Source of the DNA: Candidatus Bathyarchaeota archaeon
GTDB lineage: Archaea > Thermoproteota > Bathyarchaeia > Bathyarchaeales > Bathycorpusculaceae
Direction: 5' to 3'
Length of the DNA stretch: 64,000 bases
Assembly (NCBI GenBank): GCA_025058315.1
Contig: JANXET010000004.1
Location: forward strand, 1 to 64,000
A program made the position numbers and the translations under genes. Below are positions 60,237 to 62,017 of this stretch, one piece after another. The first letter of the stretch is position 1, and every line of letters begins with the position of its first letter. The notes under the pieces were generated by a model. It was not told where the DNA came from. It worked only from the letters and a program-made list of their open reading frames with translations, and did not search any database.

Positions 60237-60617
60237 ATGTCAATTCAGGAAAGAATATCAAGGGCTCTGTCAGCAGCCATGCAGCATCTTGAAAGGGCAT
60301 TATCAGCGGATAAAAGTGATGTAGACGCTCTGGAGAATGATGTTTGGCATGTTGCATCAGAGCTTGAACACGCTCTCTTGTTATTTTCATTAAATTTTGA
60401 GGATAATGATCCAGCGAAATGGAGGTCAAATATTCCGCGGAAGAGGGAGATACGTGAAACGCTTACCTTGGTTTACGAATTGCTAAAGCAGTCTGTTGAT
60501 GCGCTATCCAAGGGGAAGCTTCTAGACGCCTATAAGGAAGCTTACGCTGCAAGATACCAGGTATTCTCGCTTCAAGAAGAATTCTCTAAGAAAAAACGTA
60601 AAAAACAAGAAGGATAG
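60237..60617 (+). CDS. Unrecognised small helical protein
   Basis: The 126-residue protein reads as an antiparallel helical bundle (SIQERISRALSAAMQHLERA, NDVWHVASELEHALLLFSLN, ETLTLVYELLKQSVDALSKG, AYAARYQVFSLQEEF) with a strongly basic tail KKKRKKQEG. I recognise no family. The tail could bind RNA or DNA. It converges on the eL22-like gene with a 5-base gap. Confidence 0.55.
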   Translation: MSIQERISRALSAAMQHLERALSADKSDVDALENDVWHVASELEHALLLFSLNFEDNDPAKWRSNIPRKREIRETLTLVYELLKQSVDALSKGKLLDAYKEAYAARYQVFSLQEEFSKKKRKKQEG

Positions 60618-60622
60618 AGCAG

Positions 60623-60895
60623 CTATTCTTCTTCAACTAAGAGTTTACGCTCTTTAATCTTTAACACATTTTCCTCTTTGCTTATGATTCTGAAGTACTC
60701 TTTCAACCCGCTTTTATGCAAGAACTTGCGCAATAGTACTCGCAGGTACCTCTTTGGGGTTTCATCGCTCTTCACCACTATGTTATCCGCGGATTTCTCA
60801 ACCTCAACGCCTAACCTCTGCTTCAGGAAGTCTTCAAGCTCCTTTATGATGTCTTCACCTTCAGATTTTAGTTCAGATATGTCTATTTCCATCAT
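60623..60895 (-). CDS. Ribosomal protein eL22-like protein
   Basis: The 90-residue protein resembles eukaryotic ribosomal protein eL22 along most of its length. A helix ELEDFLKQRLGVEVEK corresponds to the FEKFLQERIKV helix of eL22. Next, NIVVKSDETPKRYLRVLLRK (38-57) corresponds to the [21 protein letters not shown] block, followed by LKEYFRIISKE (64-74; eL22 LRDWLRVVANS), a beta strand and an acidic tail VEEE. In eukaryotes eL22 binds 28S rRNA on the large subunit. It is not a standard archaeal ribosomal protein. The gene lies directly downstream of an ABC importer ATPase, and I infer a ribosomal role only from similarity. Confidence 0.72.
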   Translation of the reverse strand: MMEIDISELKSEGEDIIKELEDFLKQRLGVEVEKSADNIVVKSDETPKRYLRVLLRKFLHKSGLKEYFRIISKEENVLKIKERKLLVEEE

Positions 60896-60910: not shown

Positions 60911-62017
60911 TTATTCTACGGATATCTCTGCTCTCAACCCGGCCTCAGGATACGGGAATACATGGGCATTTTCGGGGCGAAAGCTCACTATAACCTTTTC
61001 TCCTGTAGTGAACCATTCGCATGTCAACGATGGTGTGACTACTAAAACGGTGTCCTGATTTTCAAGTTCAACTTCGTATCTTATTGTTGTGCCCTCAAAA
61101 GTGACCCTCTTTATTATTCCATTAAATAGGTTGGCTTCGCCTGATCTTCCATGCCTCTGCATGGTTAACGTTTCGGGTTTTATAGCTAGAACAACCCTAT
61201 CTCCCACGTTCATGCCTCTATTTATCGCTTTAAACCTTAATCCTCCGCGCAGCTCAATCACGGCTGCTTCACCTTTAGCCTCAATAATATAGCCCTCGAG
61301 GAAGTTTGACCCTCCTATGAAGTTGGCAACGAAGAGGTTCTTTGGGTTAGTGTAAAGCTCTTGCGGTGTGCCTACTTGCAGTATTTTACCTTTCCGCATC
61401 ACCGCTATTCTATCGGACATCGCCATAGCCTCCGCCTGGTCATGAGTTACATGTATGGCTGTTAACTCCAGATCTTTCGCCATCCTCCTAATTTCATATC
61501 TTAACTCGTTTCTAACCTTGGCGTCTAACTGTCCAAGGGGCTCGTCGAGAAGCAGAATCTTCGCTCCTGCTGCCAGCGCCCTGGCGACGGCAAGCCTCTG
61601 CATCATGCCTCCGCTTAGCTCGTTAGGATAGGCGTCTAAACGCTCATGCAGCCTAACCATCTCTAGAACCTCATGTCCTATTCTATTCGCCCTTGTCATG
61701 TCGTAACCCTTTATCCTAGGTCCATAAATCACGTTTTCCCAGACATTCATATGTGGAAAAAGCGCGAAAGTTTGGAATACAAATCCAATGTCCCTGTCTT
61801 CCGGGGGAGCGTCATTTACAAGTTTGTCGCCGATGTAGATTTCCCCGCTGTCCGGCTTGATTAGACCCGCAATAAGCCTTAGAAGGGTGGTTTTACCACA
61901 TCCACTTGGCCCAAGCAGGGAGAAGTATTCCCTATCGCGTATGTGGAGGCTGATGTTGTCCACTGCCACAACATTGCCGAACTTCTTAGTGACGTTGACT
62001 AGGCGGACATCAGGCAT
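60911..62017 (-). CDS. ABC importer ATPase (PotA/FbpC class) with TOBE domain
   Basis: The 368-residue protein has Walker A GPSGCGKTT (36-44), FQTFALFPHMNVWENV (Q loop), signature ELSGGMMQRLAVARAL, Walker B ILLLDEPLGQLD and the switch histidine VTHDQAEAMAM. The C-terminal 130 residues form the TOBE-type regulatory domain (VFEG-type strand FEGTTIRYEVELENQD). It energises the permease encoded 50 bases upstream at 62068-63741. Substrate class could be thiamine, iron(III), putrescine or an oxyanion; no binding protein is adjacent to decide. Confidence 0.9.
   Translation of the reverse strand: MPDVRLVNVTKKFGNVVAVDNISLHIRDREYFSLLGPSGCGKTTLLRLIAGLIKPDSGEIYIGDKLVNDAPPEDRDIGFVFQTFALFPHMNVWENVIYGPRIKGYDMTRANRIGHEVLEMVRLHERLDAYPNELSGGMMQRLAVARALAAGAKILLLDEPLGQLDAKVRNELRYEIRRMAKDLELTAIHVTHDQAEAMAMSDRIAVMRKGKILQVGTPQELYTNPKNLFVANFIGGSNFLEGYIIEAKGEAAVIELRGGLRFKAINRGMNVGDRVVLAIKPETLTMQRHGRSGEANLFNGIIKRVTFEGTTIRYEVELENQDTVLVVTPSLTCEWFTTGEKVIVSFRPENAHVFPYPEAGLRAEISVE

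Follow-up and report, generated by a model that had tools for sequence, protein, structure and literature searches.

In archaea, eL22 was reported in Lokiarchaeum (PMC4571567), and of 12 ribosomal proteins specific to eukaryotes, eL22 and eL28 are exceptional in that some Asgard members have them (PMC8997704). RPL22e is present in several Asgard phyla, within Heimdallarchaeia in Hodarchaeales only, and a 2023 Nature paper listed it among the informational traits that support Hodarchaeales as the closest relatives of eukaryotes (PMC10307638). The RNA-binding region has been mapped in human L22, where high-affinity binding of RNA depends on residues 80-93, and binding to 28S rRNA requires residues 88-93, with a contribution of residues 80-84 (PMC2668802). 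Extra large-subunit proteins are also known from a TACK lineage, namely aL45, aL46 and aL47 of Sulfolobus, which have been described as novel folds (PMC10516650). A search of freely accessible papers found archaeal eL22 from Asgard only and none from Bathyarchaeia; in databases, such Bathyarchaeial proteins may already carry this label through automatic Pfam annotation. The first-pass annotation of the DNA studied here had proposed an archaeal homologue of eL22 and mentioned an earlier one from Lokiarchaeota, which is correct, but its occurrence extends to several Asgard phyla (PMC10307638, PMC8997704). Judged by the descriptions in these papers, the Asgard eL22 proteins (Lokiarchaeota, Hodarchaeales and others) are likewise archaeal homologues, from another phylum (PMC4571567, PMC8997704, PMC10307638).

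The window, a stretch of 64,000 nucleotides from a Candidatus Bathyarchaeota archaeon, belongs to a draft genome of 54 contigs. The following features are relevant here:

60237..60617, plus strand: gene of a convergent 126 aa protein, recurring beside or near eL22 in a cluster of 19 loci
60623..60895, minus strand: archaeal eL22 gene, 90 aa, stop included, based on PF01776, the AlphaFold2 (AF2) fold and orthologues
60713..60754, minus strand: basic helix matching human eL22 residues 80-93, predicted to bind RNA, codons 48-61, KRYLRVLLRKFLHK
60911..62017, minus strand: ABC transporter ATPase gene (PF00005 and TOBE_2), directly upstream of eL22

The reading frame runs on the minus strand, which had been left unstated before, from an ATG at 60895 to a stop at 60623 (90 codons), and the plus strand across 60623-60895 contains many stops. 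Its 90 aa translation is MMEIDISELKSEGEDIIKELEDFLKQRLGVEVEKSADNIVVKSDETPKRYLRVLLRKFLHKSGLKEYFRIISKEENVLKIKERKLLVEEE, and a purine-rich AAAGGGGA lies approximately 9 bases 5' of the ATG. The stop of the ABC ATPase gene is separated from the eL22 start by 15 nt, with both genes on the minus strand, and the two are probably co-transcribed. The gene order ATPase-(DUF47)-eL22 recurs in many relatives. Most Bathyarchaeia carry a PhoU_div/DUF47 gene between the ATPase gene and eL22, only a few bases from the eL22 frame; the genome of the window has no DUF47 gene between these two. The convergent 126 aa neighbor is predicted to be all-helical (AF2 pLDDT 90.7), and neither a Pfam family nor, at E<=0.001, a PDB fold matched it.

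The window protein matched the Pfam family Ribosomal_L22e (PF01776) over residues 24-80 with a significant score of 37.7 bits (E 2.9e-9), the cut-off (gathering score) being 23.6. Each of 40 aligned archaeal orthologues matched this family individually (40/40 at E<=1; best E 8.2e-13), and none of 14 control genomes contained a match. When the single window sequence was compared with the PDB using phmmer, the best 60 matches were eL22 chains only (best E 3.4e-5), and with profile A2, composed of 40 archaeal sequences, the PDB matches listed were all eL22 (best E 1.2e-9). The latter alignments are near full-length, for example positions 5-85 on Tetrahymena 18-108, and Tetrahymena eL22 was aligned from KIDCSQPVED through the end of the core. 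NCBIfam matches of the window protein scored far under the cut-off and were considered chance. A link to Sulfolobus aL45-aL47 was dismissed, as no such chain was present among the PDB profile matches listed for eL22-like alignments.

The structure was modeled with AlphaFold2 from an alignment of 25 Bathyarchaeial sequences, which resulted in a model with a pLDDT of 86.5 and a pTM of 0.73, and with the element order strand, helix, strand, strand, helix, strand, strand. In a Foldseek comparison with the PDB, the 50 listed matches were all eukaryotic ribosome entries (best E 1.4e-5), with TM-scores by query length of 0.72-0.81 and an rmsd of approximately 2 Å for the best; the matched chains are those named eL22 by the phmmer and profile searches of the PDB where the lists overlap. 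The predicted fold is thus that of eL22. A missing profile match or an unlike fold, which had been named in advance as arguments against the assignment, was not found, and the reading frame at 60623-60895 is confirmed as a true eL22 relative.

Identity to human eL22 is approximately 27% for the window protein and 19-29% across the Bathyarchaeial family. The human protein counts 128 aa, compared to 90 aa for the window protein, and the two are collinear over the whole domain. The window protein lacks the lysine-rich N-terminal extension of eukaryotic eL22, and its loop from the first helix to the strands is shorter. The basic helix KRYL...[RK]K[FY]L is common to the archaeal and eukaryotic proteins, whereas archaeal eL22 has FLHK with an invariant His where eukaryotic eL22 has YLKK. 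The first-pass annotation had aligned the protein with eL22 over the helix, the KRYL block and an acidic tail. The KRYL block is collinear with human residues 80-93, but the acidic tail, VEEE, is short compared with that of eukaryotic eL22 and by itself weak evidence. In 12 of the orthologues, the last eight residues contain only two to five acidic ones.

After the human eL22 sequence had been verified against the PDB, the residues of the RNA-binding region were compared among 40 orthologues. At the sites equivalent to human K80, K84, K89 and K92, 100% of these carry K, R or H, with an invariant His at the K92-equivalent position in the archaeal proteins. The K88-equivalent position is basic or His in 97%, the K93-equivalent in 80%, and the R81-equivalent in 47%. 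Going by these alignments, the basic stretch that human eL22 needs for binding 28S rRNA is kept in archaeal eL22. The helix segment has a net charge of +6 and the whole window protein of -2. Most likely, the basic face of the second long helix (K48, R49, R52, R56, K57, H60 and K61) would dock on a 23S rRNA hairpin, and the protein (strand, helix, two strands, helix, two strands) would have its place on the large-subunit surface, like eukaryotic eL22. An Rfam LSU search detected no 23S rRNA in the genome of the window, where the rRNA is perhaps unassembled, and a 23S motif matched in none of 61 genomes, for which either unassembled rRNA or an ill-chosen motif may be responsible. Furthermore, eL28 was not found in the genome of the window, but as the control also gave no match, this result carries no weight.

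Using the archaeal profile and genomes with at least 80% completeness, eL22 was found in 98 of the 130 genomes of the order, and in 73 of the 77 genomes of the window's own family in the same table. It is mostly single-copy, and the search in related genomes revealed a conserved gene and not an isolated copy. In close pairs, dN/dS was approximately 0.04-0.2, apart from a value of 0.36 in a single pair whose sequences are very close and differ by few changes, and the gene is under purifying selection. The phylum sample contained eL22 in families f4, f5 and f6 of the order, and no match in f2 (11 genomes), f3, f7 and f8, while the order-wide count included one f8 genome with the gene. Because whole families of the same order do without it (f2, 11 genomes), eL22 is dispensable. 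The host had been assigned to a TACK lineage, and in agreement with this all 26 named homologues (26/26) are Candidatus Bathyarchaeota or Bathyarchaeia records, including BA2 (L052). The draft state of the genome, with its 54 contigs, could point to eukaryotic contamination or a misassembled bin, and the likeness to eL22 could in principle be due to chance. However, the synteny of the contig is conserved with many independent Bathyarchaeial bins, the window protein is 43-63% identical to Bathyarchaeial copies, and profile, fold and selection agree. We consider these explanations extremely improbable, and contamination is ruled out by the conserved synteny and the independent assemblies.

It had been suggested that a copy in this genome would extend the distribution of eL22, and this is indeed the case: the gene is present in a TACK class, and further classes of its phylum have divergent relatives. 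The archaeal profile matched 64 of 398 phylum genomes, with single divergent copies beyond the class in families f20, f21, f22, f23, f45 and f60, and a broader profile matched 67. The eukaryote-based PF01776 alone matched 47 phylum genomes (46 above the cut-off), essentially inside the order, and since this model finds little beyond the order, the divergent copies would be missed with it. One weak PF01776 match outside the order (G354) was disregarded because of four in-frame stops. One divergent eL22-like protein (L100), encoded in a single-contig genome of 1.5 Mb (G338), has a long low-complexity tail rich in E, K, P and A.

A DUF47 (PhoU_div) gene lies directly upstream of eL22 in most Bathyarchaeia and in two loci of another class (L092 and L096), in L090 and some of the Bathyarchaeia the upstream gene is purA, and GatD and GatE are convergent to eL22 in L090 and most f21 loci. 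The DUF47-eL22 and purA-eL22 linkages across classes support the view that the divergent copies are orthologous and were inherited vertically. At L089-L095, divergent copies of other classes adjoin GatD/GatE, which function in tRNA-dependent amidation, and purA, which functions in purine synthesis. Depending on the lineage, the neighbors of eL22 are an ABC transporter, DUF47, purA, AlaX or GatD/GatE, and never a ribosomal operon. The description of the window gene as not being among ribosomal genes is right in that it lies outside any ribosomal operon, but the uS10 and eL37 genes are found 6-8 kb away, with eL22 outside their operon.

Several Bathyarchaeial genomes contain a second, paralogous eL22-like family, whose members have 108-139 aa and a basic tail (L102, L104, L105 and L106), ending in HGF or SWGL in several copies, which coexists with standard eL22 in the same genomes. 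A profile of four paralogue sequences detected the window's eL22 at E 1.2e-7, the detection being reciprocal by profile, and profile-profile comparison with eL22 gave a probability of 95.6%. A third variant carries a proline-rich C-terminal tail (L097, L098, L099 and L103), in which several members show the motif PYYFP or PYLFP, and its profile-profile value with eL22 is 97.7%. Within the class, this variant is frequent in family f15, and it occurs in families in which standard eL22 was not found. The eL22 domain has thus diversified in archaea, and since paralogue families exist, archaeal proteins with this fold may serve other functions.

This raises the question whether the window protein might be a true eL22 homologue with a non-ribosomal function, either as a free RNA-binding protein, for instance one that regulates mRNAs or tRNA, or as a ribosome-associated factor tied to the transporter operon. 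Such a role would fit a gene outside a ribosomal operon that follows DUF47 and ABC transporter genes at operon-like distances, an overall acidic charge that is unusual for a ribosomal protein, and the expansion of paralogues in the class. Moreover, eukaryotic eL22 is reported to have RNA targets outside the ribosome (PMC3750023, PMC4838235). However, the neighbors change by lineage (transporter, purA, GatD/GatE) while eL22 stays, so that no functional partner is fixed, and the conserved surface of archaeal eL22 is the predicted rRNA-binding helix. We consider a non-ribosomal function unlikely.

The eL22 tree, based on 94 columns and containing no Asgard sequences, was poorly resolved. Eukaryotic eL22 formed one clade (100/100) on a long branch, which grouped with the Bathyarchaeial family and not with the paralogue or divergent families, at weak support (56/69). 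Since no archaeal sequence is nested within the eukaryotes, a recent transfer from eukaryotes is excluded. More generally, the gene could have been acquired horizontally from eukaryotes or Asgard, in which case it would be silent on ancestral archaeal ribosomes. The patchy occurrence in the phylum (64/398 genomes) would agree with this, and a tree without Asgard sequences is compatible with an Asgard donor or an ancient exchange. Yet the eukaryotic clade holds no archaeal sequences, members diverge down to 36% identity to the window protein, and the divergent copies in several classes share gene neighbors. An origin by transfer, which would have to be an ancient one, appears slightly less probable still than a non-ribosomal function.

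Taken together, we favor, with a probability of roughly three in four, that the gene is an archaeal orthologue of eL22 that binds a 23S rRNA hairpin at the surface of the large subunit, and that it is an old gene that was lost many times. This builds on the homology and the fold, on the conserved RNA-binding stretch and purifying selection, and on the synteny and mostly single-copy conservation of the gene; by analogy with eukaryotic eL22, we infer that the protein would bind rRNA, be incorporated into the 50S subunit and occupy the corresponding position there. The patchy but deep distribution, in the order, scattered classes, Asgard and eukaryotes, is best read as that of an old archaeal gene with many losses. 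With somewhat less confidence, we propose that eL22 was ancestral to the TACK-Asgard lineage, predating eukaryotes, was lost repeatedly, and is part of a larger archaeal family that includes two or more other subfamilies.

What is new is that a known family has a member where none was expected, and the value of this finding lies in what it means for evolution. The protein, long deemed eukaryote-specific, looks like an old archaeal protein and not like one that marks eukaryotes and their nearest relatives, and Bathyarchaeial ribosomes are predicted to carry an extra large-subunit protein. With eL22 and divergent relatives present in TACK archaea, RPL22e of Hodarchaeales is likely a retained old trait, which weakens its use for linking Hodarchaeales with eukaryotes. 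If eL22 was indeed ancestral to the TACK-Asgard lineage, RPL22e would not be a shared derived trait of Hodarchaeales and eukaryotes.
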